The notes below the pieces were generated by a model. The model ran no database searches. It worked only from the letters and a program-made list of their open reading frames with translations, and was not told where the DNA came from. Position numbers and translations under genes: made by a program. A stretch of 43,719 nt of DNA from Gammaproteobacteria bacterium. Lineage in GTDB: Bacteria; Pseudomonadota; Gammaproteobacteria; Xanthomonadales; SZUA-5. This document shows, in pieces, positions 3,662 through 43,649 of this stretch (within the stretch, counting starts at the first letter, position 1; each line of letters starts with the position of its first letter). The DNA is taken from positions 1 through 43,719 of the forward strand of contig JAUIFV010000017.1 in NCBI GenBank assembly GCA_030430155.1, written 5' to 3'.

Positions 3662-4732
3662 TCAACAATGCGGACCAGGCCCCACCCGCTCACGCAACCG
3701 CGCCAGCTCAGCCCGCGGGTCGATACCCCGCTGCGCCAGCCAATCGACGTCGAACAGGGTCTCCGCATAGCGCTCGCCGCGATCGCAGAGCAGGCTGACG
3801 ATGCTGCCCGACTCGCCGCGCTCGCACATCGCTTCGGCCAGCTGCAGACAGGCGATCAAATTGGTACCGGAGGAGCCGCCATAGCGGTTGCCCAACAGCT
3901 CGGTGAGCAGCCAGGTGGCAGCGACGGACTGCGCGTCGTCGACCTCGATCACCTTGTCGACCACCTCGAACAGGAAGCTGGGTTCGACGCTGGCCCGACC
4001 GATGCCTTCAATCAGCGTGCAGCTGCTGGCGCGGGCGTCCCTGCTCCGGGTTTGCCAGCCCACGGCGAAGGCGGCGCCGCTGGGTTCAGCCACGCACAGC
4101 CGGGTGGCCAGTCCGCGATAGCGCAGATAGCGGCCGATGGTGGCCGAGGTGCCGCCGGTGCCGGCGCCGCAGACGATCCAGGTCGGCTGCGGATGGGGCT
4201 CCAGGCTCATCTGGGCGATGATCGATTCGGCAATGTTGTTGTTGCCGCGCCAGTCGGTGGCGCGTTCGGCCATGCCGAACTGATCCAAGTGGCAGGCCCC
4301 GGCCGCCGCCATCGCCGCGGCGTGGGCGGGCACTGCAGCCGGATCGGTCAGCAGTTCGCAGCGGCCACCGAGGGCGCGTACCGCCTGGATCTTCGCCGGC
4401 GCCGTGCAGGCCGGCATCACCGCCGAGAAGGGCAGACCGAGCAGGCGCGCAAACCAGGCTTCGGATATCGCCGTGCTCCCAGAGGAGGCATCGACTACCG
4501 CTTGGCCCTGCGCCAGTCGGCCGTTGCACAGCGCGTACAGATACAGCGACCGCGCCAGCCGGTGCTTGAGGCTGCCGGAGGGGTGCGAGGCCTCGTCCTT
4601 GAAGTAGAAATCGATGCCTGGAAAGCGCGCCAGCGACAGCCGCAGCAGGTGGGTGTCGGCCGAACGTGCCGCTTCCTGCTGCAGCACGCCCACCGATCTC
4701 CGCAGCCACTGCCGATCCGTGCTGTCGCTCAC
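3662..4732 (-). CDS. PLP-dependent cysteine synthase-family enzyme, Cds1-like (cysteine desulfhydrase type)
   Basis: This is a 356-residue fold-type II PLP enzyme. The Schiff-base lysine is in HPSGSLKHRLA (K56), the substrate-carboxylate loop is SSGSTAIS near 84, and the phosphate-binding glycine loop is GAGTGGTSATIG near 188. The KDEASHPSGSLKHRLARSL pattern and the GGSSGTNL motif resemble the Cds1 branch (fission yeast Cds1, mycobacterial Rv3684), known to release H2S from cysteine, more than CysK or CysM. The exact substrate is inferred. Its ATG overlaps the stop of the upstream decarboxylase gene by four bases (ATGA), so both PLP enzymes are co-translated and probably act in one pathway. 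Confidence 0.85.
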   Translation of the reverse strand: MSDSTDRQWLRRSVGVLQQEAARSADTHLLRLSLARFPGIDFYFKDEASHPSGSLKHRLARSLYLYALCNGRLAQGQAVVDASSGSTAISEAWFARLLGLPFSAVMPACTAPAKIQAVRALGGRCELLTDPAAVPAHAAAMAAAGACHLDQFGMAERATDWRGNNNIAESIIAQMSLEPHPQPTWIVCGAGTGGTSATIGRYLRYRGLATRLCVAEPSGAAFAVGWQTRSRDARASSCTLIEGIGRASVEPSFLFEVVDKVIEVDDAQSVAATWLLTELLGNRYGGSSGTNLIACLQLAEAMCERGESGSIVSLLCDRGERYAETLFDVDWLAQRGIDPRAELARLRERVGPGPHC

Positions 4733-6717
4733 GACGCCATCTCCACGCTGTTCAGCAGCCGGCGGATCTCCTCGCCCAGGAAACGGAAATAGCCGTCGAT
4801 ATAGCTCAGGTCGTTGTGCTCGTCGAGCAGATAGGGGTTCATCAGGGTGTGGCGCAGGATCACCAGGCGGTCATCGCCGTCGCCGCCCAGGGTGGTTGGA
4901 TCGATGCCCAGCATCTGCATGATCCGTCCCATCTCCACCGCGCCCAGCGCGTCGGGACGCAGTGTGGTGGTCGAGGCGAAATAGGACTTGACCTGCAGCG
5001 GCTGCTGCGGATCGCAGCGCAGCACCTGGTAGAGCTTGCGCAGGAAGTGGTTGGCCACGCCCACATCACTGTTGCCGAGCGGATTGATCGCCAGGCAGAC
5101 CAGATTGCTGTCCGGCGGAAACGGAACGCAGACCCGCGCCACCTCCGCCATCGCGGTGGCGAAGCGCCTGGCGGCGCCCAGGAAGTGCTCGGCGGAGCGG
5201 ATGGTCTGCGCCTGCAGCCGGCCGAAATGCGCATGATCCAGCGGCAGCACCTGATGGCTGATGTACACCGCCGCGGCGGTGGCGCCGGACTTGGAACCTT
5301 CGGGGATGAATTGCCCCAGACCGCGAAAGCGGCGCATGTAGCTGTCGGCGTTGGCGTCGTGATAGACGTAGTCGGCTTCCTCGCGGAGCAGCTCCATGGC
5401 CCGGCCATCGCGGCAGATGAAGGCGCCGGCGCCGTAGGGCAGGTAGCCCAGCTTGTGCGGGTCGACGGTGACCGAGTCGGTCTTGCCCAGCGCAGCGAAG
5501 GCGGCATGGACGGTATCGGCGGGAAAGCTCTGAAACGGTCGGCCCACCTCATCGCGGCTGCGCAGACTGCCGTCTGGATTGCGAAACAGCGTCGCCAGAT
5601 AACCGCCCCAGGCGCCGTCGATGTGCACCCAGTGGCCCAGTCCTGCCTGCCCACTGCGCTGACGTGCAGCGACTACGCCGTCGACCGGATCGATGGTGCC
5701 GTACTCGGTGGTGCCAAGCACCGCCACGCTCATCAGTACCGGCTGCCTGTCGCGCTGGCACTGCAGCAGCGCCTCTTCCAGCGCATCGATGTCCAGGCGC
5801 ATCTCGCGTTCGGGCAGCAGCTGCAGCTGATTGCGGCCCAGGCCAAGCAGCTTCAAACCCTTGCTCCAGGAGTAGTGGGCGGTGATCGGCGCCAGCACGC
5901 GCGGCAGCGACAGCTGCCGGTGACCGGCGAAGAAGTCCACCATGCCGCGCTGCTCCAGGCGCTCGGCCTGTACCCGTCGCTGCCACTGCCGGCGCTGCGC
6001 GGGACTCTGCTGCGCCAGCCACCGCTGCCATTCGACCAGCAGCACCACGGCGTCGGCCGGATTCAGATTGTAGGCCTGCCAGTCATCTTCAGGCAGGGTA
6101 ATGTCCGGCACCTGTGCCGTCCGCAGCGCCACCGGGAAGGCCTTCAGGGCCAGGGCCAGGCGCAGAGCCTGGTAGTTGGCTACCGTGCCGCCAGAGCACA
6201 GATGGCCGAAGGCGCAGTCATCGCGGCTGGTGTCGTCGGGATAGCCGAGCATGCGCGCCAACTGCAGGCCGGCGCGCACCTCCAGATCAACGGTGACCGG
6301 GGCTGCCTCCTCGCTGACGTTGTTGGGGTTGTAGGGTAGGGTCAGGATCTGCGCGGCGACGCCCGGAATCAGCAGGTCGGAGACCATGTGGCCGAGATAG
6401 CGCGGGCTGTGGAAGGGCACGGAGCGCTTCAGCGCGGCCGACAGCCGATGCAGCTCGTGGCGCAGCTTGGCCTCGAAGGCCTGGTAGTCGGCCCGGGTAG
6501 ACGCGTGGGTGGGAATGGCCGGTGGATCTTCGGGATGGAAGTTGCGCCGCCAGTAGGCGTGATCGCGGAAGAATTCGACGATCAGCTTCTCCAGCAATGC
6601 GTCATTCTCGGCGTAGGGGCCGAGGAAACAGGCGTCCAGGCAAAAATCGTCGCTCACCGCTGCGGCCGGGGCATCCAAGGAGTCGTCAAGGCTAATCGCC
6701 GCCTCCGCTCGGTGCAT
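4729..6717 (-). CDS. Group II PLP-dependent amino acid decarboxylase (tyrosine/aspartate decarboxylase-like)
   Basis: This 662-residue fold-type I PLP decarboxylase has the catalytic lysine in TVDPHKLGYLPYGAGAF (K422), the aspartate that binds the cofactor ring nitrogen in HIDGAWGG (D367), and the histidine stacking on the ring in ITAHYSWSKG (H281). The length and the motif form TVDPHK-x-GY-x-PY resemble the long bacterial tyrosine decarboxylases and related PanP-type aspartate decarboxylases rather than the roughly 470-residue glutamate enzymes. The substrate cannot be assigned from sequence. The product would be an amine or beta-alanine made in the cytosol. No antiporter, which usually accompanies acid-resistance decarboxylases, is nearby. 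The partner is instead a cysteine desulfhydrase-like enzyme. Confidence 0.87.
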   Translation of the reverse strand: MHRAEAAISLDDSLDAPAAAVSDDFCLDACFLGPYAENDALLEKLIVEFFRDHAYWRRNFHPEDPPAIPTHASTRADYQAFEAKLRHELHRLSAALKRSVPFHSPRYLGHMVSDLLIPGVAAQILTLPYNPNNVSEEAAPVTVDLEVRAGLQLARMLGYPDDTSRDDCAFGHLCSGGTVANYQALRLALALKAFPVALRTAQVPDITLPEDDWQAYNLNPADAVVLLVEWQRWLAQQSPAQRRQWQRRVQAERLEQRGMVDFFAGHRQLSLPRVLAPITAHYSWSKGLKLLGLGRNQLQLLPEREMRLDIDALEEALLQCQRDRQPVLMSVAVLGTTEYGTIDPVDGVVAARQRSGQAGLGHWVHIDGAWGGYLATLFRNPDGSLRSRDEVGRPFQSFPADTVHAAFAALGKTDSVTVDPHKLGYLPYGAGAFICRDGRAMELLREEADYVYHDANADSYMRRFRGLGQFIPEGSKSGATAAAVYISHQVLPLDHAHFGRLQAQTIRSAEHFLGAARRFATAMAEVARVCVPFPPDSNLVCLAINPLGNSDVGVANHFLRKLYQVLRCDPQQPLQVKSYFASTTTLRPDALGAVEMGRIMQMLGIDPTTLGGDGDDRLVILRHTLMNPYLLDEHNDLSYIDGYFRFLGEEIRRLLNSVEMAS

Positions 6718-6754
6718 TGACGCCGGTCAATAAGGGCCAAGCCAGCCCCCTGAA

Positions 6755-6862: not shown

Positions 6863-7609
6863 TCAGCGCTTGCGCTGCGGACAGATCAGGCGGCCGTCGC
6901 CACCGGCGTGGCACTCGCTCTGCAGATCGACCATGTGCCGGTCGATGGCTTGTTCCATCGGTCCGGCCGCAACCAGCGAGTTGAGCCCGCTGCCGCCCAC
7001 CAGCTGATCGGGCGACATCATCCCGCCGAGCTGACGCAGGCGGTCGCGCGGGGTGGCTGGCGGGTCGCTCCAGCTGCGGCTGGAGTCGCCGGGCAGTGCC
7101 GGGATGGCTTTGCCGAAGCGCTCGGAGCCCGAGCCGGATTGTTGGCTCTGCGCACGGGCGGCGGCGTTGATTGCCGATTGCCAGTCGATGGCAATCCGTT
7201 CGCTGCGGCTGTCCTCGGCAACCGGAGCGGTGATCTCAGCCGGCACCGGGGCGGCTGCTGGTCTGGAAGCCGGAGGCAGGCGGTCGTTGCGCCGGGTGTC
7301 TACAGGCTGGTCCAGCGCTGGTTCGGCGGCGAGGCTGGGCGTGGCGACTGGCGGCGATTCCAGCAGCTGCACGGTGAGGCGTTCGACCGCAACCGGTGGC
7401 GGCAGCATCGCGGGTTCTTCGTCCATCCACAGGGCGACCAGCAGCGCATGGCCGAGCAGCGCCGCAGCCAGGGCGGTCAGTGTCGCCGGTCGTCGCAGCC
7501 AGCGCAGATCCCAACTCGCCATCGACCGCCGCCGACGAACACGGCCCCAGGGGCTGACTGGTTGGGGGCTGGCCGGCTGCAGCTGGATGGTCAGGGAGGT
7601 GGCAGTCAT
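6863..7609 (-). CDS. Proline-rich single-span inner membrane protein of unknown function
   Basis: This 248-residue protein is read from the ATG at 7609; longer in-frame extensions have no protein-like character. A basic cytoplasmic stretch (GRVRRRRS) precedes one membrane segment (about residues 44-62, ATLTALAAALLGHALLVALW). A long periplasmic Pro/Ala/Ser-rich linker follows, then a short C-terminal domain with PMEQAIDRHMVDLQSECH and two cysteines. The layout resembles the N-terminal anchor of TonB-like proteins, but the TonB C-terminal domain is missing. I do not recognise a family. It stands alone, divergent from yebC. Confidence 0.7.
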   Translation of the reverse strand: MTATSLTIQLQPASPQPVSPWGRVRRRRSMASWDLRWLRRPATLTALAAALLGHALLVALWMDEEPAMLPPPVAVERLTVQLLESPPVATPSLAAEPALDQPVDTRRNDRLPPASRPAAAPVPAEITAPVAEDSRSERIAIDWQSAINAAARAQSQQSGSGSERFGKAIPALPGDSSRSWSDPPATPRDRLRQLGGMMSPDQLVGGSGLNSLVAAGPMEQAIDRHMVDLQSECHAGGDGRLICPQRKR

Positions 7610-7833
7610 CGGTCCGCTCTGCTTGCCGCGGCCGTCGTTGTAGCGGGCCGTAGCTACACCGGCGCTGAAGCGCAACAGGATCGGAATGACTTCTGACCCT
7701 GGTCGCAGCGCGGCAGCGGCATCGGCGAACCGCGGCGATACTGGTTTGCGTGCGTCTGCCGAGTTAGGCTTCGCGCCCTCACCGATTCCAGCCGCCGCGG
7801 GCAGTCCGCTGCGGTGCATGACAGGACACGAAC

Positions 7834-27354: not shown

Positions 27355-27358
<4 letters not shown>
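27319..27358 (-). repeat. GGGCCCAGGG-type repeat array, right arm
   Basis: On the minus strand it begins CTGAGGGCAAAGGGCCCAGG, closely matching the left arm at 26646 (CTAAGGGCAAAG). The TGA at its start is the stop codon of hutH, so the array reaches into the coding end. Confidence 0.72.
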
Positions 27359-29216
<1,858 letters not shown>

Positions 29217-29220
<4 letters not shown>

Positions 29221-30626
29221 GACTGCTCTGACGCCGATTCGCCCAGCGGGCCCAGCGGCATGGCGCGGAACTGCTCGATCTCCACCCGCAGGCTGGCGAC
29301 CAGCTCATCGCGGGCTACCTCGAACTGCTCCTGGCGCTGCAGATCCTTGACCTGCACCACGCCCTTGGCAAGCTCGTCTGGGCCGACGATCACCGCGAAG
29401 GGGATGCCTGCCTTGTCGGCGTACTTGAGCTGCTTGCCCAGCTTGCCCGATTCCAGCTGCAGCTCGGTGTTGATACCGGCGCCGCGCAGCAGTGCGGCCA
29501 GCTCGGCGTATTCGGCAAACAGCGCCGGGTCCATCTGGGTCACCAGCACCGCCACCGAGCTGCGACCGCTGCCGATCAGGCCGGCCTCGCGCAGCTGCCA
29601 GTACAGTCGGGTGGCGCCGATGGATATACCGACCCCGGGCAGCTTGCTCTTGGTGTAGTTGCTGGCCAGATTCTCATAGCGCCCGCCGGAGCAGACGCTG
29701 CCGATCTCCGGATGCTCGGTAAGCACGGTCTCGTAAACGGTGCCGGTGTAGTAGTCCAGGCCGCGGGCGATGGCGCAGTCCCAGGCAAAGAAGGACTCAG
29801 GCACGCCGAAGGCGCGAACCAGGGTGATCACCTCACGCAGCTCGCTGATGCCCTGCTGCAGCGCGGCGTTGCTGTCCGGCAGCGCCTCAAGCTTGGCCAG
29901 CGCCTCGTCCACGTTTGCAGAGCGGAAGCCGACGAAGTCGAACAGCTGATCGATGGCCGCCGCGCCCAGACCAATCTCGCCGCCGGCCAGGCTCTGGCGT
30001 ACGTGGTCCACACCGCGCTTGTCCAGCTTGTCCACTTCGCGCAGCACCAGGGTCTGCATCTCGGCATCGGCCACGCCCAAGTGTTCGAGCAGACCGCGCA
30101 TCAGCATGCGGTGATTGACCCGGACCTGGAAGGGCCCGACCTTGAGCGCCTGGAAGACCTGATAGATCACCGCCACCAGCTCGGCGTCGAAGCGCGGCGA
30201 CAGGCTGTCCTTGCCGATCACGTCCACGTCGCACTGGTAGAACTCGCGGAAGCGACCGCGCTGCGCGCTCTCGCCGCGGTACACCCGCTGCATCTGATAG
30301 CGGCGGAAGGGGAAGTTGAGCTGATGCTCGTGCTCGGCCACGTAGCGCGCCAGCGGCACGGTCAGATCGAAACGCAGCGCCAGCTCCGGGTCGCCGCCCT
30401 TGTTCAGGCTGCCGGTGGACTGGACGAAGTAAACCTGCCGTTCGGTTTCGCCGCCGGTCTTGGTCAGCAGCACGTGGCTGAGCTCGATGGCCGGGGTCTC
30501 GATGGGCAGAAAGCCGTAGCGCTCGAAACCGGCGCGAATGCTGTCGAGCATCTCCATGAACGCGATCTGGTCCAGCGGCAGCAGCTCGAGCACACCGGGC
30601 ATGGTGCGCGGCTTGGTCAGACTCAT
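29217..30626 (-). CDS. hisS: Histidyl-tRNA synthetase
   Basis: This class II synthetase charges tRNA-His. The 469-residue protein has motif 1 in the IETPAIE region, the TERQVYFVQ segment, motif 2 [20 protein letters not shown] then [12 protein letters not shown], the histidine-binding loop [11 protein letters not shown], and motif 3 with [11 protein letters not shown]. The C-terminal anticodon-binding domain starts near 355 ([11 protein letters not shown]). It is longer than the roughly 425-residue E. coli enzyme. It is upstream of and overlapping hutH, so charging and breakdown of histidine appear to share one transcript. Confidence 0.96.
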
Positions 30627-31957: not shown

Positions 31958-34900
31958 TCAGCGCGGCTCGCCGCCCATCCCGTTCCGAAACAACACATCC
32001 TCAGGAACGCAGCTGTGCACCTCAAAGTCATCCACATACCAGCCTTCCGTGCCCTGGCGGGCATCGTTGAGCATGCGGAAGCGGAAGCGCTGGGTTTGGC
32101 CGGCGACGCCGCGTAGGTCGACGATGGCGGTTTCGAATTCGGATTGTCCGCACCAGGCTGGGCGTCCTGGGCTGGGGCTGGTCGGTGCCATCAGCCGTTC
32201 CGGGCGGCCCTGTTGGAAGCGTTCGACGTCGATCGGCACGGTCCCGCCGGTCGCCGAACGTACGTCGAGGACGGCGCCGTCCCAGCACAGCTCGGCGTTG
32301 CGTCGCTCGATGTTGCGCCAGTGGCGGAAGCTGAGCACCGGTCGCTCGGCCGCTGGCGGCAGGTTGATCGGCGGCGAATCCAGATTCTGGTCGGCGGTGA
32401 CCCCAAATCCTGAAACCTTCCAGCTTCGGGTGGGACTGCTCGCACGCAGCGTCGATACGACCCAAGTGTTGATGGAATCGTCAGGGTTGGCCTCCCAGCC
32501 GGGCTGCGGCGGCTCCATGGCGTCGCGATAGAGCAGCATCTTGCGGGTGCCTTGCGGGCAACTACCAGGCGCGGCCGGAGTGCGGAAACTGGCGCTGCTG
32601 CTGGCCCCGGTGCCGCAGGCGTTGCTGGTGGTGATGCGCCAGTGGTACTGGGTCTCGGGCTGCAGATCGACCGCCGGGCGATAGCGAGTGTCGGTCAGAT
32701 TGAGGTCGACCAGCGGGTTGGAAAAATCGGCTGCCGTGGATAGTTCCAGTCGGTAGCTGCTGACCTGCGTGCGCGGCGACCAGCGCAGCAGCGGACGCAG
32801 ACTGCTCGCCTCCGATCCTCCCGTTGGCGCGGTCAGACTGCTTGCCGTCGGTATAGCCTCGGCCACGCTCAGCGCCAGTCTTTGCCCGAGCTGGAAGCTT
32901 GCCGAGGACAGGTTGAGGATGAATGCGTAGCTGCCACCCTCCACGCCGGCAGTCCCGCCGACGGTGACCTCAAATTGGCCATCGCCGCTTAGCGATCCTG
33001 GGCTGACAACCACATTGAGGCCGCCGGGGAGTGCGTCCAGACTGGCGCTGATGGTGCCCAGTCCTGGGGCCAAGCGCAGCACTGGGACCTCGAAGCTGGC
33101 CTGCTCGCCGGCGCACACGGCGGTTGAGACTATGCCGTCGGTGATATCGAAGCCTGCCGTCGGCGCGCAGTTGTGGCAGAGCAGGGCGTAGTCCTGATCG
33201 GTTTCGTCGCCGTGGAAGGGCACACCGTCACCGGGCAGTTGATGAGCCTTCACCCGCACCACCAGGGGCGCATCGGAGGGCGGCAGAAAGGCCTGTTCGG
33301 CGTTGTTGAGCCGATCCGGCGCTGCACCCAGGCTGGTGTGATTGCCGCCGGTCGGCACCGCGCCGCGCTGTACCTGCAAATCCAGGTCGTTGACCAGGGC
33401 CGGGGAAGCCCCGATTGCCCCGGGGGCGTCGGTCCAGGTCAGCACCACCCGCACCGGTAGCTGATCGTCGATAGGGGCGAGGGCAAACCGATGGATTTCG
33501 CCGCTGTCGTCGAGAGTCTCGGTCTGATCAATGACCCAGGGTGTGCGCCCTTCGCGAACCATCATCGGCAGCATCGCGCGGCCAAAGCCTTCCTCCGGGT
33601 TGGGCGTCACCGCCGCCACCGCCGCGCTGTCCTCGGCGCCTTCGATGAGCAGCGCCTTGAGCATGGCCGGCGAGGGTTGGCTGCCGGCGAACTGCTGTCG
33701 CCACCACTGCACCAGCAGCGCGGCCAGCCCGGAGACGTGTGGCGCGGCCATGCTGGTGCCGGAGCAGTAGGCGTACAGCCCGGCGGTGTCGGGAATCTCC
33801 GGTTGATTGCACAGCGTGCCGCCGTCCAGCCGTCGGCTGGAGGCGATATCGGCCCCGGGCGCAACCACGGTCGGCGCGATCCGGCCATCCTGGGTAGGCC
33901 CGCGGCTGGAGCCGGTCAAAACTTCGTCCGGGTCGCCCACTCGCGGCGACTGGGTGGCGCCGACCACGATGACGTTCTTGGCCTCCTTGGGTGCGGTCAG
34001 CGTGCTCACCGAAGGGCCAGAGTTGCCTGCGGAGAAGACGATGGCCAGCGGTTCCAACTCGGTGCTGGTGTCGAAGTTGCCGTCGCGGACCATCACGTCG
34101 AACAGCCGCTCGATGCTCTGATAGCCGTGCCGGATGCCCTCGCCGGTGGTGAAACTGGCGTTGGTGCCGATCGCGCCGGCTTCGATGGCGCGCTTGCTCA
34201 GCGACTGCCAGCCACCCTCCGGCGGGAAAGTGGGTGTGCCGCCGCGACAGAGGATGTTCTGGGCGTAGATCTGCACCTTGGGTGCGACCCCGACGCCGTA
34301 GTAGAAACCTGCCGGATCGGTGAACGATCCAGCGCCCGAGCCACCAAGGATTCCGGCGACGTGGGTGCCGTGGCCGCCGGCGTCGCTGTCGTCGCCAGGC
34401 CCGTTGCCGGCCGGGCAGCCGGGAAAGCTGTAGCCGGCGGCGATGCGTCCGGCGAACTCCGGATGGGTCAGATCCACGCCTTCATCGCTGACTCCCCAGC
34501 GCACTCCGGCGCCATCCAAGCCAAGCAGATTCAGGTAGGCCAGATAGCCCGGAACCGGAGTGCTGCCGTTGGGCGGATTGCCGGCCAGCACCAACGCGCT
34601 GAGCTCGTCCTCGCTGTGCGGTTGCGCTGCCGCCTCGCCGATCCAGATCACCTCGGCGATCTGCGCCAGCGCCGGTAGTCGTGCCGGATCGATCTGCAGA
34701 TAGGCATTGTGCAGTCGTCGGTCCGGTTGCGCCGGTGCCTCGGCAACAATGCGGGCGCCCAGGGCGACGAAAGACTGCAGCGACTGCTGCGCTGCGCCGT
34801 TGACGTAGAAGTGGACGCTGATCAACTCGGCAGCGCCGCTGAGTAGATTCGCGGAGGTCTTTAGGCCGGGTCCGAAATCGCCGCTCCAGCGCACGCTGGG

Positions 34901-35329
34901 GTCGCTGGCAATCTGTGCCAGCGCCGCGCTGTCGCTCCAGACCAGATAGCCGTTGTCCGGGTAATACTGCAGCGCCACGGCGCCGCTGGCCCGAATCCGG
35001 TCCAACTCGCGTTGGGTCGGCGCGTCGGTCCATTGCAGCAGGCGCAAACCCCGGCCCTGCGCGTCCTCGCCGGCGCTGCCGAACTGCAGTGCGGGCAGTC
35101 GTAGCGGGTCGAAGTCGCGACCGGCCACGCTCAGCCTGGCTGTCTGCGCCTCGGCACAGATCGGCAGGCCCACCAGCAACGCCAGCATGGGCGCGCACAG
35201 CAGCGAGATGCGCGACCGACGCCGGCACCCTCGACCCGTGCAGTTTGACAAGCTGTTGCTGCTGATACCGCTTACTCGATACTTCGCCGATTCGAGTCGG
35301 ACCGGCGCCCCTGTGTCACCGCAGCGCAT
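31958..35329 (-). CDS. Secreted subtilisin-like serine protease (S8), paralog A
   Basis: This large exported protease has about 1,120 residues from the ATG at 35329. The start is uncertain: TTG codons at 35350 and 35251 and an ATG at 35188 are alternatives. A signal-like stretch RRRSRISLLCAPMLALLVGL precedes the prodomain (about 70-270). The catalytic triad is D282 (SDEGVDLTHPEF), H320 (GGHGTHVAGI) and S526 (CSGTSMAAPHVSGL). Then come a jelly-roll-like region, a fibronectin type III-like domain (SYRLELSTAADF, YHWRITTSNACG) and a C-terminal domain ending GWYVDDFEVHSC. The tail LFRNGM is a degraded form of the FxxGFE tail of its neighbour. It is a tandem paralog of the next gene. Confidence 0.88.
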   Translation of the reverse strand: MRCGDTGAPVRLESAKYRVSGISSNSLSNCTGRGCRRRSRISLLCAPMLALLVGLPICAEAQTARLSVAGRDFDPLRLPALQFGSAGEDAQGRGLRLLQWTDAPTQRELDRIRASGAVALQYYPDNGYLVWSDSAALAQIASDPSVRWSGDFGPGLKTSANLLSGAAELISVHFYVNGAAQQSLQSFVALGARIVAEAPAQPDRRLHNAYLQIDPARLPALAQIAEVIWIGEAAAQPHSEDELSALVLAGNPPNGSTPVPGYLAYLNLLGLDGAGVRWGVSDEGVDLTHPEFAGRIAAGYSFPGCPAGNGPGDDSDAGGHGTHVAGILGGSGAGSFTDPAGFYYGVGVAPKVQIYAQNILCRGGTPTFPPEGGWQSLSKRAIEAGAIGTNASFTTGEGIRHGYQSIERLFDVMVRDGNFDTSTELEPLAIVFSAGNSGPSVSTLTAPKEAKNVIVVGATQSPRVGDPDEVLTGSSRGPTQDGRIAPTVVAPGADIASSRRLDGGTLCNQPEIPDTAGLYAYCSGTSMAAPHVSGLAALLVQWWRQQFAGSQPSPAMLKALLIEGAEDSAAVAAVTPNPEEGFGRAMLPMMVREGRTPWVIDQTETLDDSGEIHRFALAPIDDQLPVRVVLTWTDAPGAIGASPALVNDLDLQVQRGAVPTGGNHTSLGAAPDRLNNAEQAFLPPSDAPLVVRVKAHQLPGDGVPFHGDETDQDYALLCHNCAPTAGFDITDGIVSTAVCAGEQASFEVPVLRLAPGLGTISASLDALPGGLNVVVSPGSLSGDGQFEVTVGGTAGVEGGSYAFILNLSSASFQLGQRLALSVAEAIPTASSLTAPTGGSEASSLRPLLRWSPRTQVSSYRLELSTAADFSNPLVDLNLTDTRYRPAVDLQPETQYHWRITTSNACGTGASSSASFRTPAAPGSCPQGTRKMLLYRDAMEPPQPGWEANPDDSINTWVVSTLRASSPTRSWKVSGFGVTADQNLDSPPINLPPAAERPVLSFRHWRNIERRNAELCWDGAVLDVRSATGGTVPIDVERFQQGRPERLMAPTSPSPGRPAWCGQSEFETAIVDLRGVAGQTQRFRFRMLNDARQGTEGWYVDDFEVHSCVPEDVLFRNGMGGEPR

Positions 35330-35406
35330 CCGGCTCGCGGTCACTGTCAATTTATGCGCTGCGCGGCCGCTTGGCTACAAACGCGGCCGCGCGCGCCCAT
35401 GCTCGA

Positions 35407-38400
35407 CTATTCGAAACCGTTCTCGAAGATGAAGCTCCCGTCGGGACAGGACTGCACCTTGACGTCGTCCACATACCAGCCCTCGGCGCCAACGCTGCCG
35501 TCCGAGCCCAGCCGGAAGCGGAACTGCGCCGTTTGTCCTGCCAGCGCATCGATGTCGACGATGGCTCGGGTCCAGTCCTGAAAATCGCACCAGCCGCGCA
35601 GTCCTGCCAAGGGGTTGGTATTGCCGCTCACTGTTCCGGTGTAGGGGTCGGTGAGCATGGCTGGATCGAGAATCTGATTCCAGCTTGCGCCACCGTCGGT
35701 GGAGGCTTCCAGGATACCGGCATCCCAGCAGTTGACCTGCTGGTTGTCCTCAATATCGCGGCGGTGGAAGAACTGCAGGGTCAGCGGTGATTGATTGGCA
35801 GGCAGCGCGATCGGCGGCGAAATCAGGTGCTGATCGCTGACGCTGGTGGGATCGTTGGCATGCCAGGACGTGGTCCCGGAGTTGGCCTGAGTCGTCGACA
35901 GCTGCCAGGAGTTGTTGTTGCCGCCGGTGGTCCAGGCGCCGGGGCCGGACTCGAAGTCGGTGCTGAATGCGGTATTGACCTGATTGCCGATGCTGCAGTC
36001 GCCGGGCGCCGGCGCGGTGATGAAGCTGAATGCCGGTGCGCTGGCGCTGCTGCCGCAGCTGTTGGCGGCGGACACCCGCCAGTAGTAGATGCTGTTGGAG
36101 TTGAGCACCACCGCGCTGGTGTATTCGGCGCTGTCGACCATGGCGCTGTCGACGATGTTGCCAAAGCCCGGATCGTCGGCAATCTCGATCAGATAGCTAC
36201 CGCTTTGCGCCGGCGCGCTCCAGGTGAAGCTGGGCTGCACCGGCTGATTGTTTGCCGCATCGGCCGGCGTGAGCAGCATCGGCACGGCCGGCGCCTGCGT
36301 ATGCAGCTGCAATGGCAGATCGCGATTCTGCTGGCCCGAGGTGGAATCGGCCTGCACGTTGATGGTGTAGTCGCCGGCGCTGGCGGCGCCGGTATTGCCG
36401 ATGGTCAGCGTGCTGCTGCCCGGGGGATTGACCGGATTGTCGCTGAAGCTGACGGTAGCGCCGGCCGGCTCGCCGCTGGCGCTCAAGGTCACCGGATCGG
36501 TGTAGCCAAGGATTGAGCCGATCTGCAGATCAAAAACCGCATCATCCGGTGCGCACACCGACTGTCCGCCGCCGGTGGCGTTGAGTGCATAGTTCGGATT
36601 CTGCGCGCAGTTGGTGCAAACCAGGGCGAAATCCTGGTCGGTCATGTCGCCGACGAAGGGCACGCCGTCACCGGATATGGCGTTGGCGCGGACGCGGATG
36701 GTCACCGCGCCGCTGGCGCTGGCCAGGAACACATTCTCCAGGTTGTTGATTCGATCGGCGCTGCCGCCGGTGGCCGACAGTCCACTGCTGAAAACGTTGC
36801 CCAGATAGGTCTGACCGTCGACGTCCACCTCCAGATCCAGATCGTTGACCAGGGCCGGGTTGGCGCCGATAGCGCCGGGGGCGTCACTCCAGGCCAGGCT
36901 GATCCGCAGCGGCTCACCGCTGTCGACCACGCCCACCTGCAGCTCATACACCGCGCCCGCGTCATCGAGTATCTCGGTTTGGTCGATGTAGTGGCGCGAG
37001 GTGCCCTCGGCCAGCGTGTCGGGGATATGTATCCGGCCCCAGCCTTCGGTGTTGTTGGGGATGGTGGCCACGTTGGCCATGTCCTGCGCGCCGTTGACCA
37101 TCAGCGCCTTGAGCATCGCCGGGCTGGGGTCGCCACCGGGGCCGCGGGTGGCTCGCCACCACTGCACCAGCAGCGCCCCCAGCCCGGAGACGTGCGGCGC
37201 GGCCATGCTGGTACCGGAGCAGAAGGACATCTGATTGCTGGTGCCGGAAATGGGCGTACTGCACTGCGATGCGCTGGCCACCCGGCGGGTCGAGGCGATG
37301 GTCGCTCCCGGTGCGGCAATGGTCGGGAAGGTGCGTCCGTCCACCGAGGGTCCGCGACTGGAGAAACTGGCGATGCTCTCAATGGAACCGGCACGCTGAT
37401 TGTTGGATGCGGCGACCACGATCGGATTCTTGGCCTCCTTGGGTGCGGTCAGGGTGCTGGCGCCGGGACCGCTGTTACCTGCGGAGAACACGTAGTAGAA
37501 CTGTTCGGCCACCCCGGCGGTATCGAAATCGCCGTCGCGAACGATGAAGTCGAAGGTGCGCTCGGAATTCTGATAGCCGTGATTGGCGCCTTCGCCGCTG
37601 GTCCAGCTGGCGTTGGTGCCCACCGCGCCGCCGGCCAGCGCGCGCTTGCTCAGCTCCTGCCAGCCGCCGGCCGGGGGCCACGGCACGCCGCCGCTGCAGA
37701 TCGGGTTCTGGGCGAAGATCTGCGCGCCAGGAGCGACGCCGATGGCGTAGTTGAAGCCGTCGCCGTCGACCAGCCCGAGCACCCCGGGTCCGGCGACGAT
37801 GCCGGCCACGTGAGTGCCGTGACCGCCGCTGGCCGGGTCATCGCCGGGGCCGTTGCCGGCCGGGCAGCCCGGGTAGGTGTAGCCGCCGGCAATGCGGCCG
37901 ACGAACTCCGGGTGGGACAGGTCCACGCCGCTGTCGGTGACCGCCCAGGTCACCCCGCTGCCGTCGTAGCCGATGCCGGCGAGAAAACTCAAGTAGCCCA
38001 GCTGCGGGGTGCCGCCGACATAGTTGCCGCCGACGATCTGGCTGGACATTTCGTCCTCCAGCTTGCCTTCGGGGCTCTGATAGCCGTACCAAAGCACTTC
38101 GGCGATGCGCGCAAAGCTGTCCAGGCGCGCCGCATCGGCGACCACGATGGCCTCGTAAAAACGCTTATCCGGCTGCGCCGCATGTGAGCTCAACACCTGT
38201 GCGCCGGCGTTGCGCAAGGCATCCAGGGTCTGCTCGACGTTGCCGTTGTTGATGAACTGCACGGCGACGTTTGTAATCACGCCATTGCGCTTGGCCAGAT
38301 CGGCGCTGGCTTTCAGCGATTCGCCGAAGTCACCCACCCAGCGCACATTGCCGAGCGCGCGGGTGGCGTTGCTGGCGGTCTGATCACCCCACACCAGATA

Positions 38401-38799
38401 GGCATTCCCGGGGTAGTACTGCAGCGGCTGCAGGCCCGCATCACGCAGCGCATCCAGATCGCTCTGCCGCGGCGGTCCGAACCACTGCACCAGTTGGAAA
38501 TAGCGGCCCTGCGCGTCGCGCGGCGCCAATAGTGCCGGCGCGGCCTGCAGCGGATCGAAGCGATGCGCGCCGAAGCTGATCACGTCGGCATGCTCGACCA
38601 CCGTATGCGGTGTGCCGGCGCGCCGCAGTTCGGCCAGCGCCGCCTGATCCAAGCGCAGCAGCTGGTAGCTGCCGTAGTCCAGCTGCCTTTGCACGCTCAG
38701 GGCGGCGGGCACGGCGGCGGTACCCTCGACACGAACAACGACATCGGCGTTGGCCAACATCGGCCAGGAAAGCAGCGCAAGCAGCAGGCGCAATCGCAT
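35407..38799 (-). CDS. Secreted subtilisin-like serine protease (S8), paralog B
   Basis: This 1130-residue exported protease has a clean signal peptide (MRLRLLLALLSWPMLANADV) and GGAG before the ATG. The prodomain region (about 20-275) shares LQYYPGNAYLVWGD and QPDKRFYEA with paralog A. The triad is D289 (TDSGVDLSHPEF), H327 (GGHGTHVAGI) and S531 (CSGTSMAAPHVSGL). A fibronectin type III-like module (SYLIEIADDPGF, YYWRVSAANSCG) and a terminal domain ending EGWYVDDVKVQSC follow. The final residues FIFENGFE match the F-x-x-G-F-E tail I recall on many Lysobacterales secreted proteins. It lies upstream of paralog A with a gap of about 80 bases, and both may share a transcript. Confidence 0.92.
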   Translation of the reverse strand: MRLRLLLALLSWPMLANADVVVRVEGTAAVPAALSVQRQLDYGSYQLLRLDQAALAELRRAGTPHTVVEHADVISFGAHRFDPLQAAPALLAPRDAQGRYFQLVQWFGPPRQSDLDALRDAGLQPLQYYPGNAYLVWGDQTASNATRALGNVRWVGDFGESLKASADLAKRNGVITNVAVQFINNGNVEQTLDALRNAGAQVLSSHAAQPDKRFYEAIVVADAARLDSFARIAEVLWYGYQSPEGKLEDEMSSQIVGGNYVGGTPQLGYLSFLAGIGYDGSGVTWAVTDSGVDLSHPEFVGRIAGGYTYPGCPAGNGPGDDPASGGHGTHVAGIVAGPGVLGLVDGDGFNYAIGVAPGAQIFAQNPICSGGVPWPPAGGWQELSKRALAGGAVGTNASWTSGEGANHGYQNSERTFDFIVRDGDFDTAGVAEQFYYVFSAGNSGPGASTLTAPKEAKNPIVVAASNNQRAGSIESIASFSSRGPSVDGRTFPTIAAPGATIASTRRVASASQCSTPISGTSNQMSFCSGTSMAAPHVSGLGALLVQWWRATRGPGGDPSPAMLKALMVNGAQDMANVATIPNNTEGWGRIHIPDTLAEGTSRHYIDQTEILDDAGAVYELQVGVVDSGEPLRISLAWSDAPGAIGANPALVNDLDLEVDVDGQTYLGNVFSSGLSATGGSADRINNLENVFLASASGAVTIRVRANAISGDGVPFVGDMTDQDFALVCTNCAQNPNYALNATGGGQSVCAPDDAVFDLQIGSILGYTDPVTLSASGEPAGATVSFSDNPVNPPGSSTLTIGNTGAASAGDYTINVQADSTSGQQNRDLPLQLHTQAPAVPMLLTPADAANNQPVQPSFTWSAPAQSGSYLIEIADDPGFGNIVDSAMVDSAEYTSAVVLNSNSIYYWRVSAANSCGSSASAPAFSFITAPAPGDCSIGNQVNTAFSTDFESGPGAWTTGGNNNSWQLSTTQANSGTTSWHANDPTSVSDQHLISPPIALPANQSPLTLQFFHRRDIEDNQQVNCWDAGILEASTDGGASWNQILDPAMLTDPYTGTVSGNTNPLAGLRGWCDFQDWTRAIVDIDALAGQTAQFRFRLGSDGSVGAEGWYVDDVKVQSCPDGSFIFENGFE

Positions 38800-40607: not shown

Positions 40608-43600
40608 CTATCGCAGCGGCATGCTCGGATCACCAAGCAGAACGGTGCCCAGATTGACATCGATAGCCTGTGGGTCGCGCCGTATCTGTTCGGCCAGTCC
40701 ACTGCGCCAGACGTCACCGAGGCGTGCATCCTTGTCCAAGCGCGTCAGCATGGCGGCGCCCAATGCCGTGGATGGTCCGGTTTCGGTCAGCGTGGATGCC
40801 CCGATCACCGCGACGGCGGCGCGCTCGGAGGCGAGCAGCGTGTGGGCCAGCGAGTTGTACTCGGGCAGTACGAAGTAGGCACCCCAGCAGCCCCATTGGG
40901 TCGCCAGGAAAGGTTCGGCGGTGTCGGCCAGCAACCCATTGGCGACGTCGCTGGCGCTGAGTAATCCATCGCCAGTCCAGCGTGAGGGGCTGGCGTGACC
41001 GAAGTAGTTCAGCCAGCGGCGGCCGTCCGCCAGCGCGTCGACGAGTTGGTTGCGGGCCAGCGCGGTGCCGGTGCTGCCCGCGGAAAACTGATTCAGATCC
41101 AAACTGCTCTGCAGGCCGCCATAGCCGATTCCGGCTGACATGATCAGGTTCTGCTCGGCGAAACTGTATTCGTCGGCGTTGCGGTCGGAGACCAGCAGGG
41201 CGCCAGATTGGGTCGCGTTGGATCCGAATTGCAGCGTCTTGGCGACCAGCCTTTGCACCTCGATTGCGCTGCGGACCGGCCAGCGGCCAACCGCGATATC
41301 CGGCTGCCCGTCGCCATTCAGGTCGGCGTAGGGCAGGTCCGTGGGCGCGTGGCTCACCAAAGTGCCGGTGCGGCGGTAGAAGGTGGGCAGGAAGCTGCGG
41401 CTGCCCAGTCCGAGCACGTCGTCATAGTCGTAGCTGTCGCCGCCGACCAGCAACAAGTAGCGTGGCTGCGCGCCGCTGGCACCCTGGTCGCGCAGAAACT
41501 CGGCAACAACCGTTGCGCTGGGATAAGCCGCCAGTTGCTGCTGGTAGATCGCTTCGGTGGTCACCACTTCTGTGAGCAGCCCTTCACTGCGACGCTGCGC
41601 GACCAGTGGTGCCAGCGCCTCGACGAAGGTAGGGTGACTGATGATCAGCAGATCGACCGCCTCCAGGCGTGGCGGGGTCGCACTCGGGACGCTGATCTGC
41701 GGCGTCAGCGCCGTATCCACGGCCACATACTCGCCTGGACCAGGGACGGCAACGAACCAATCGTCGCCTTCCGGCTGCGCGCCGAGCAGCTCAACCACAT
41801 CGTCGCCGTTGACTTGGAATAGCTTCGGCGCCGCATCAAAGCCGGCGATGCGATAGGCCGCGCAATCGGCCAGGCAGTTGCTCGGTTCGACCGACTCGAA
41901 ACCGAGCGCGGAGATGGCGCTGGGTGGAGTTGGTGTCTGGCCTTCTTCAGGAGCAAGCTGTACGACCCACCGTCCGTCGGCGGCAGCGCTGGCGCCGACG
42001 TAGTCGATCTGCAGCGATTCAATGTGGACGCGATCGGTGGGATAGCCGGTGGGTAGCAGGCTGATGGTCACCTCGTTGGCGCCTTCGACCAGCACGCCAG
42101 GCGGAACCTCGATGCTGCGTAGCAGCGCATTGACCCCGTCAAACCGATACTCGGCGAGCGGCAGCCCATTGATCGCCACGCTGACCGCGTGATCGGCATC
42201 AGCATCGGGATAATCGAGGCCACCCCAGGCGCTGAGCCGCAGCCGCGCCGGCTGATCGATGGCTACCCCGCTGAGCTGCAGCGACTCGCTGACGCTGTTC
42301 ATTGCCGCACCGCTGCGCGAGAGCCGGCGCAGGAACCACGGGTCGCTCAACGGTGATCCAACCGCATAGGCGCGGTTGTCGTCCAGACGAACGCTGCGCT
42401 GCTGCAAGCCAGCAGCCGATGCGGGATCTGGTCGCTGCATGCTTTGCGGCCAGTCCTTGGCCATCCCCGGACGCTGGGTCAGCCAGTAGCTGCGGGTGCG
42501 CCCGTAATGAGGCTGGGCGGGCGCATTGGCGTAGAACTCGATAAAGTCGCCCGTGCCGAAGCTGCCGTCGGCGCTGAGGATCGATCTTGCGATGGGCCGG
42601 CCGTCACTGATCAAAGCCAGTTCTTGGACCGGGATACTGCTCAGATCCACTCCCGCGGCCAACAGCGTGGCGTAGTCGACTCGATAGAGCCCACTCTGGT
42701 CGATCTTCAGCTCGGCCATCGAGGTGCCCGAGCGCGGCGCGGCAGTGGCTTCGAAACGGGCCTGCTCGGCATTGATGGCGAGCCAGTCGACGCGATTGCG
42801 GGTGAGTCGTTGGCCGTGCTCTGCGTTGCTGGCGTAGGGCCCGAAGCGTTGGATCTTGCCGCCGTACTCCACCTGTTCGATCAGGAACCGGCCGGCGCTG
42901 GGCGCTCGCATCGCCACGCTGTACAGGCTCGGTTCGTGGTCCGCAGTGGCCTTGGCGCCGATCCGCTCGGCAAGTTCGACCTCGGGTCGATCGGCATCGA
43001 GCACGCGGAAATACAGACTGCCAGTCTCCGACAGGGTCTCGAATTCCAGGGCCACGCCGCCGGCCTCAGGCTGTGCGCGCACGTAGCCGATGCTCACCGG
43101 CACGCTGCTGTAATCGGTGCCAGTCTCAATTGCCAGCTCACACAGCGGTCCCAGACGAAAAGCTGCGCCGGTCTCGTCAAGGATATTGGCGGTGGTGCCG
43201 GTGGCGGTGGTTGCGGTCAGCCGGTGCCTCCCGGTGTTGATGGGCGTGACGCTGATCTCATATGAGGCGTCGCAGCTGCCGCCGGCGGCAATGCTGCCGG
43301 GATTCCAGGTCAACGCGCCGCTGCCACCGATGCTGGGTTGACTCACCACAGCGCCGCAGTTGGTGGTGAAGTTGCCTTGGTAGCTGCGGGTGGCGTTGGC
43401 ATCGCTGGCCGGCACGGTGACCGCAACCAGGTTGCTGGCATTGAAGGTGATTGGATAGGGCGTCGGGTTGCGGATTGCCAGGCCGATCCGGAAACGGGTC
43501 GGTGAACCGGTGACCGGCGTAGTGGCGCCGCTGACTACCGTGGTGATGGAGTGACGGAAGATCGGCTTCACCGGGGCGCTGCCGTCATCGCGCGGGAAAT

Positions 43601-43649
43601 AGATGCGGAATGAATCGGCGTTGGGATTGGTCACCGCCGGGGGCGGCAA
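40608..43649 (-). CDS. Gingipain-like C25 cysteine peptidase, N terminus interrupted or incomplete
   Basis: This frame of 1013 residues ends in a C25 (caspase/gingipain fold) peptidase domain: LLIISHPTFVEALAPLVAQ starts it, YLLLVGGDSYDYDD and DLNGDGQPDIAVGRWPVRS follow, then the catalytic histidine in LNYFGHAS (about H885) and cysteine in TQWGCWGAYF (about C921). The N-terminal part (about 1-170) is a beta-rich conserved-repeat-like region with paired cysteines. No signal peptide is present. An in-frame TGA at 43656-43658 stops the frame, and only TTG (43649) or GTG starts exist, yet upstream codons still look coding. The gene may be truncated by a nonsense change or sequence error. Confidence 0.8.
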   Translation of the reverse strand: MPPPAVTNPNADSFRIYFPRDDGSAPVKPIFRHSITTVVSGATTPVTGSPTRFRIGLAIRNPTPYPITFNASNLVAVTVPASDANATRSYQGNFTTNCGAVVSQPSIGGSGALTWNPGSIAAGGSCDASYEISVTPINTGRHRLTATTATGTTANILDETGAAFRLGPLCELAIETGTDYSSVPVSIGYVRAQPEAGGVALEFETLSETGSLYFRVLDADRPEVELAERIGAKATADHEPSLYSVAMRAPSAGRFLIEQVEYGGKIQRFGPYASNAEHGQRLTRNRVDWLAINAEQARFEATAAPRSGTSMAELKIDQSGLYRVDYATLLAAGVDLSSIPVQELALISDGRPIARSILSADGSFGTGDFIEFYANAPAQPHYGRTRSYWLTQRPGMAKDWPQSMQRPDPASAAGLQQRSVRLDDNRAYAVGSPLSDPWFLRRLSRSGAAMNSVSESLQLSGVAIDQPARLRLSAWGGLDYPDADADHAVSVAINGLPLAEYRFDGVNALLRSIEVPPGVLVEGANEVTISLLPTGYPTDRVHIESLQIDYVGASAAADGRWVVQLAPEEGQTPTPPSAISALGFESVEPSNCLADCAAYRIAGFDAAPKLFQVNGDDVVELLGAQPEGDDWFVAVPGPGEYVAVDTALTPQISVPSATPPRLEAVDLLIISHPTFVEALAPLVAQRRSEGLLTEVVTTEAIYQQQLAAYPSATVVAEFLRDQGASGAQPRYLLLVGGDSYDYDDVLGLGSRSFLPTFYRRTGTLVSHAPTDLPYADLNGDGQPDIAVGRWPVRSAIEVQRLVAKTLQFGSNATQSGALLVSDRNADEYSFAEQNLIMSAGIGYGGLQSSLDLNQFSAGSTGTALARNQLVDALADGRRWLNYFGHASPSRWTGDGLLSASDVANGLLADTAEPFLATQWGCWGAYFVLPEYNSLAHTLLASERAAVAVIGASTLTETGPSTALGAAMLTRLDKDARLGDVWRSGLAEQIRRDPQAIDVNLGTVLLGDPSMPLR

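Follow-up and report, generated by a model that had tools for sequence, protein, structure and literature searches.

The closest described relatives of the two enzymes considered here belong to the following families. The bacterial tyrosine decarboxylases (TyrDC): these are represented by solved enzymes of Levilactobacillus brevis and Enterococcus faecalis (TIGR03811; PDB 5HSI, 7CWX). In the L. brevis enzyme (LbTDC) roles have been assigned to the catalytic and PLP-binding residues H241, D328, H391 and K392, and an S586T variant retains more than 10% of the activity (PMC4904194). The Psilocybe cubensis noncanonical aromatic amino acid decarboxylase (ncAAAD; PDB 6EBN): this is a fungal protein of 1013 aa. 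The L-cysteine desulfhydrase Cds1 (Rv3684; NF052478): in Mycobacterium tuberculosis this enzyme converts cysteine to H2S, pyruvate and ammonia (PMC8389258).

The locus we report couples a relative of the first two families, here termed DEC, with a relative of the third, and lies in a 43,719-nucleotide stretch of DNA (the window) with the following features:

3662..4732, minus strand: Cds1-like fold-type-II PLP enzyme (P0001), 356 aa, GTG start
4729..4732, minus strand: stop/start overlap GTGA, 4 bp, translational coupling
4729..6657, minus strand: DEC, TyrDC/ncAAAD-type group II PLP decarboxylase, 642 aa from the probable GTG start at 6657
4729..6717, minus strand: DEC reading frame as first proposed (P0002), 662 residues, ATG at 6717
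6717..6730, minus strand: putative FNR/DNR-type operator TTGACcggcGTCAA, a perfect palindrome, its centre lying ~66 bp ahead of the likely GTG start

Both reading frames are open on the minus strand of the window at these coordinates and, as originally predicted, encode two PLP enzymes of different folds that are translationally coupled via a four-base overlap (GTGA at 4732-4729). On the 5' side of DEC lies an unrelated same-strand ORF (6863-7819) without a Pfam match, and on the 3' side of the pair a convergent MoeA gene; the window neighbours are TatB, MoeA, YebC and RuvC, i.e. not an anaerobic island. The further claim that the pair comes with neither a transporter nor a regulator is correct for the adjacent genes; however, a regulator site is present in the form of the FNR-type box.

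Family affinities of the two enzymes

P0002 matches the Pyridoxal_deC and tyr_de_CO2_C domains, and its nearest solved relatives are tyrosine decarboxylases, in agreement with its prior assignment to the long tyrosine-decarboxylase type. Among solved structures, the L. brevis and E. faecalis TyrDCs and the Psilocybe ncAAAD score 250-264 bits with DEC, and the next protein only 67; with a profile of 30 DEC sequences the TyrDC families and the Psilocybe ncAAAD reach 429, 428 and 388 bits, followed by 122 for the next. Homology to the bacterial TyrDCs is full-length (phmmer E ~1e-77; ~25-27% identity in structural alignment). That to the Psilocybe ncAAAD, the third nearest solved family, is long and covers the N-terminal part and the core, and the fungal protein, unlike DEC, carries an extra C-terminal region. 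The same L. brevis, E. faecalis and Psilocybe families are the top three recovered by Foldseek with a predicted DEC model; this model, built from the 30-sequence alignment, has a pLDDT of 79 with a poor N-terminal part and is adequate for a fold search, not for substrate docking, and no substrate claims are drawn from it. The score of DEC with the tyrosine decarboxylase equivalog TIGR03811 (295 bits) is below the cut-off of 905.

The equivalents of LbTDC H241, D328, H391 and K392 are all kept in DEC as H281, D367, H421 and K422 (the PLP lysine), and are invariant in the 30 sequences; the E299 equivalent is likewise kept in the clade, and the Y395 equivalent mostly so (F in 4 of 30). Given this retention of the PLP lysine and catalytic residues, amino-acid decarboxylation by DEC is credible. 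The original prediction had put forward an inspection of the pocket as a check: while the TyrDC catalytic residues are kept, the substrate side has clade-invariant changes, among them Y331W and A585H. T103L, E102D and M505L are also invariant in the clade, A295L is found in most members and S586T in 29 of the 30; G296 is kept, and the Y398 position is Y in 17 sequences and F in 12. By descent, an aromatic amino acid is the most likely substrate. The lactic-acid-bacterial tyrosine decarboxylases being the nearest characterized relatives of DEC (PMC4904194), one might suppose that it helps the cell to withstand acid or to gain energy through amino-acid decarboxylation, as happens in lactobacilli that produce tyramine. 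We consider this quite unlikely: the pocket is changed at Y331, A295, A585 and S586, and no amino-acid/amine exchanger was seen beside DEC in the heuristic gene calls of the window and the mapped loci.

The resemblance of the partner to Cds1, also part of the original prediction, is upheld: it is a fold-type-II PALP enzyme whose top NCBIfam match is Cds1 (NF052478; 451 bits over the whole length against an equivalog cut-off of 600, with the next family at 138 bits). The fold-type-II core is evident from the PALP match, a model with a pLDDT of 89 and Foldseek matches to OASS/CBS, and the PLP lysine K56, the substrate-loop motif SSGST and the motif GTGGTS show no variation among 21 sequences. 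The order holds two Cds1-like clades, one 63-82% and the other ~50-55% identical to the window protein; all DEC partners fall into the former (hereafter the partner clade), which is separate and fully supported in the tree, and the latter is never found directly behind DEC. Thus, the window protein differs from mycobacterial Cds1 both in its sub-cut-off score and in its membership of a clade of its own. As both proteins score under their NCBIfam equivalog cut-offs, we infer, on family resemblance, an H2S-releasing cysteine desulfhydrase reaction for the one and a decarboxylase reaction for the other.

Linkage and separation of the gene pair

We surveyed 200 genomes of the order, which are related, such that the counts are not independent. 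DEC was found in 35 of these and partner-clade Cds1 in 22; 15 genomes carry both, 14 of them as direct neighbours with order and orientation unchanged. The pairing is thus conserved in relatives, as had been anticipated, namely in 14 of the 35 genomes with DEC; in addition to these, Arenimonas maotaiensis has an adjacent DEC-Cds1 pair. The same 4-bp overlap recurs in five further loci (L088, L090, L096, L097 and L100, with heuristic starts), and partner-clade Cds1 occurs in 15 of the 35 genomes with DEC versus 7 of the 165 without it. A search of genome contigs with DEC returned only two full-length relatives.

The two genes are also frequently found apart: partner-clade Cds1 is absent from 20 of the 35 DEC genomes, and DEC from 7 of the 22 genomes with partner-clade Cds1. 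The DEC tree shows roughly four changes of the pairing label, and the Cds1 tree roughly seven changes in whether DEC is present. Loci keeping Cds1 without DEC contain no DEC remnants, and in a genome of the same genus (G045) the place ahead of Cds1 is taken not by DEC but by a GNAT gene, which overlaps it by 4 bp. Beyond the order, six of the other genomes sampled from the class contain DEC relatives, with no Cds1 beside DEC in the stretches mapped. On the basis of the pairing survey, the changes on the trees and the lone Cds1 loci, the genes are linked yet separable.

These observations bear on a single pathway of the kind originally envisaged, in which a sulfur amino acid is either formed or cleaved by the Cds1-like enzyme (formation of cysteate from cysteine and sulfite being one instance) and is itself converted by DEC to taurine or a similar amine. 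The adjacency and translational coupling in many genomes, the co-distribution (15/35 versus 7/165) and the partner Cds1 being a fully supported clade of its own all accord with it. Against it, each gene is often kept alone, frequently in the same anaerobic neighbourhood, and both family comparisons point away from a taurine-like amine derived from cysteine or cysteine sulfinate: the DEC family profile scores 71 bits with cysteine sulfinate decarboxylase (CSAD) versus 429 with TyrDC, and the Cds1-like protein 86 bits with cysteate synthase versus 451 with Cds1. The taurine route via cysteate synthase and a sulfinate/cysteate decarboxylase was rejected on these scores; with the genes separable and distant from the enzymes that this route needs, a shared pathway is weakened, and we regard it as improbable.

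PanD (PF02261) is present in 123 of the 200 genomes of the order and was not found in the whole genome to which the window belongs. This absence raised the prospect of DEC being a PanP-like aspartate 1-decarboxylase that supplies beta-alanine for coenzyme A in a PanD-less genome. The clade-invariant W370 of DEC at the TyrDC Y331 position would suit such a role, Trp being the residue at this position in GAD/CSAD enzymes. However, 23 of the 35 DEC genomes have PanD, on which grounds its replacement by DEC was rejected at the family level; its absence from 12/35 genomes with DEC and 65/165 without shows no replacement pattern. Moreover, DEC scores 103 bits with the PanP model (TIGR03799), below the 606 needed, and the genome encodes two further group II decarboxylases that outscore it on this model. 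This role is accordingly very unlikely.

The FNR/DNR-type box and the anaerobic neighbourhood

The palindrome ahead of DEC is the sole match to TTGAY-N4-RTCAA in the 43.7 kb window (0.04 expected). In a scan of 40 upstream stretches of DEC of 350 bp each (one, from a truncated contig, is longer, which only adds chance), exact sites were found at 11 of the 40 loci (0.04 expected by first-order Markov shuffling) and relaxed sites at 19 (0.3 expected), with none inside the DEC coding regions. At loci without a box, DEC often stands behind SirB, NorB or NnrS, where a box would be expected ahead of the leading gene. A further intergenic box, TTGATACGAATCAA, is found before NnrS in the window's own genome. 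As this genome also encodes an FNR-type regulator and a palindrome stands ahead of the operon, the pair has the marks of a candidate FNR/DNR regulon member, and we infer FNR control of the operon in this organism.

The box also bears on the 5' end of DEC. The A of the ATG at 6717 is the last base of the box; hence, the first proposed start is probably wrong. Codon 21, a GTG at 6657, gives MSDDFCLDACFLGPY, which resembles the starts of relatives (MSDPALYPCFLGPY and MSDPLLHPCFLGPY), and is probably the true start; transcription is predicted to begin near 6682.

In maps of regions of up to 16 kb with heuristically called genes, DEC and/or Cds1 adjoin genes for an FNR-type regulator, quinol NO reductase (qNorB), NnrS, a SirB-like protein, UbiD, UbiU and UbiV (families checked), as well as HemN, FabA and FabB (identified by reading the sequence only), both within the order and outside it. 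Examples include: an operon HemN-DEC-FNR (L143); DEC-FabA-FabB with NorB and UbiV nearby (L140); DEC with UbiV-UbiU-UbiX-UbiD (L141); and islands with a lone Cds1, such as NorB-SirB-Cds1-TyrA-like-UbiD (L114) and FNR-NorB-NnrS-SirB-Cds1 (L118). qNorB is found in 22/35 DEC genomes versus 20/165 others, and UbiU in 20/35 versus 36/165. The distance to DEC is under 10 kb for qNorB in 10 of the 22 genomes having both and for UbiU in 11 of 20; each such closeness has a chance of less than 1% in a several-megabase genome, with relatedness inflating these figures. The window's genome (G000) has, on another contig (C246, L135), an island with a SirB-like protein, quinol NO reductase, NnrS and an FNR homologue bearing CSTCVFGNLC cysteines and an ETVSR recognition helix next to qNorB-SirB. 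Thus, in many relatives DEC and Cds1 are located inside norB/nnrS/fnr/hemN/ubiUV neighbourhoods with FNR-type boxes. This link to denitrification and oxygen-independent biosynthesis, like the box, had been missed in the original prediction. Our searches of the open-access literature surfaced no report of DEC or this Cds1 as members of such neighbourhoods, and nothing on the gene pair or on DEC in NO/FNR regulons.

A few further features recur in these regions. A prephenate-dehydrogenase-like (TyrA-like) gene lies next to DEC or Cds1 in L084, L089, L091 and L114, and in three of these four precedes UbiD with 4-bp overlaps; it was not counted as a hint of an aromatic DEC substrate, as a role in making ubiquinone is just as plausible for it. 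A small protein, rich in His and with the look of an exported one, has no match in Pfam or NCBIfam and is found repeatedly in the vicinity of DEC, Cds1 or UbiD (L081, L083, L084, L088-L092, L096, L097, L107, L108 and L115). In L092 a second, shorter group II decarboxylase (4966-6285) is situated directly ahead of DEC.

Functional readings of the operon

We favour, with a probability of roughly 0.5, the interpretation that the pair is a two-gene operon of a low-oxygen/NO (FNR/DNR-type) set in Xanthomonadales-like gammaproteobacteria, with the two enzymes performing separate amino-acid reactions. On a drop in oxygen, the box at 6717-6730 would be bound by a regulator of the CRP/FNR type, for instance the FNR homologue that the window's own genome encodes next to norB, and transcription of the operon would start. 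DEC would then convert a free amino acid and one proton to an amine and CO2, and the coupled Cds1-type enzyme would release H2S, along with pyruvate and ammonia, from cysteine. Rather than being successive steps on one molecule, these conversions would proceed side by side under a common switch. Certain observations weaken this interpretation: the window neighbours of the pair are not an anaerobic island, UbiU is absent from the window's own genome, and qNorB and UbiU are both missing from 7 of the 35 DEC genomes.

Alternatively, membership of one operon within a low-oxygen cluster could be all that connects the genes, which would then be functionally unrelated and, in this organism, free of FNR control. 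Their frequent decoupling is compatible with this, as is the GNAT gene in the place of DEC in the same genus. Conversely, the window has no second such box, boxes of this type recur ahead of DEC at other loci, and the pairing persists across several families, making this alternative unlikely.

Under the favoured reading of parallel reactions, possible uses to denitrifiers are removing cysteine and releasing H2S in the face of NO stress, balancing pH or redox state, or providing a biosynthetic amine. More tentatively, DEC might be a so far unrecognized, standing part of an anoxia toolkit, in which it would feed an oxygen-independent biosynthesis or a step that protects against NO, while Cds1 would provide sulfide for that programme. 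In this rather doubtful though conceivable reading, the step so fed would explain the retention of DEC beside UbiU/UbiV, HemN, FabA/FabB and NO reductase. The favoured reading would tie two unassigned PLP enzymes to denitrification and to growth without oxygen in bacteria of soil and water; should low O2 or NO prove to induce them, and H2S or an amine prove to be made, endogenous H2S and amino-acid decarboxylation would join the bacterial response to NO and anoxia.

Elsewhere in the window, a histidine-ammonia-lyase-type enzyme and a histidyl-tRNA synthetase gene overlap by 4 bp on the minus strand (27355-29220 and 29217-30626). The lyase-type protein, at 621 aa, is longer than the 506-aa model and matches it in two stretches; a similar lyase/synthetase pair, by reading of the sequence, occurs near the lone Cds1 of another genome (G003, L119). 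Also on the minus strand are tandem subtilase (S8) genes of 1130 aa each, which resemble a duplication (31958-35350 and 35407-38799), and a gene for a 1013-aa C25 peptidase of the gingipain type (40608-43649).
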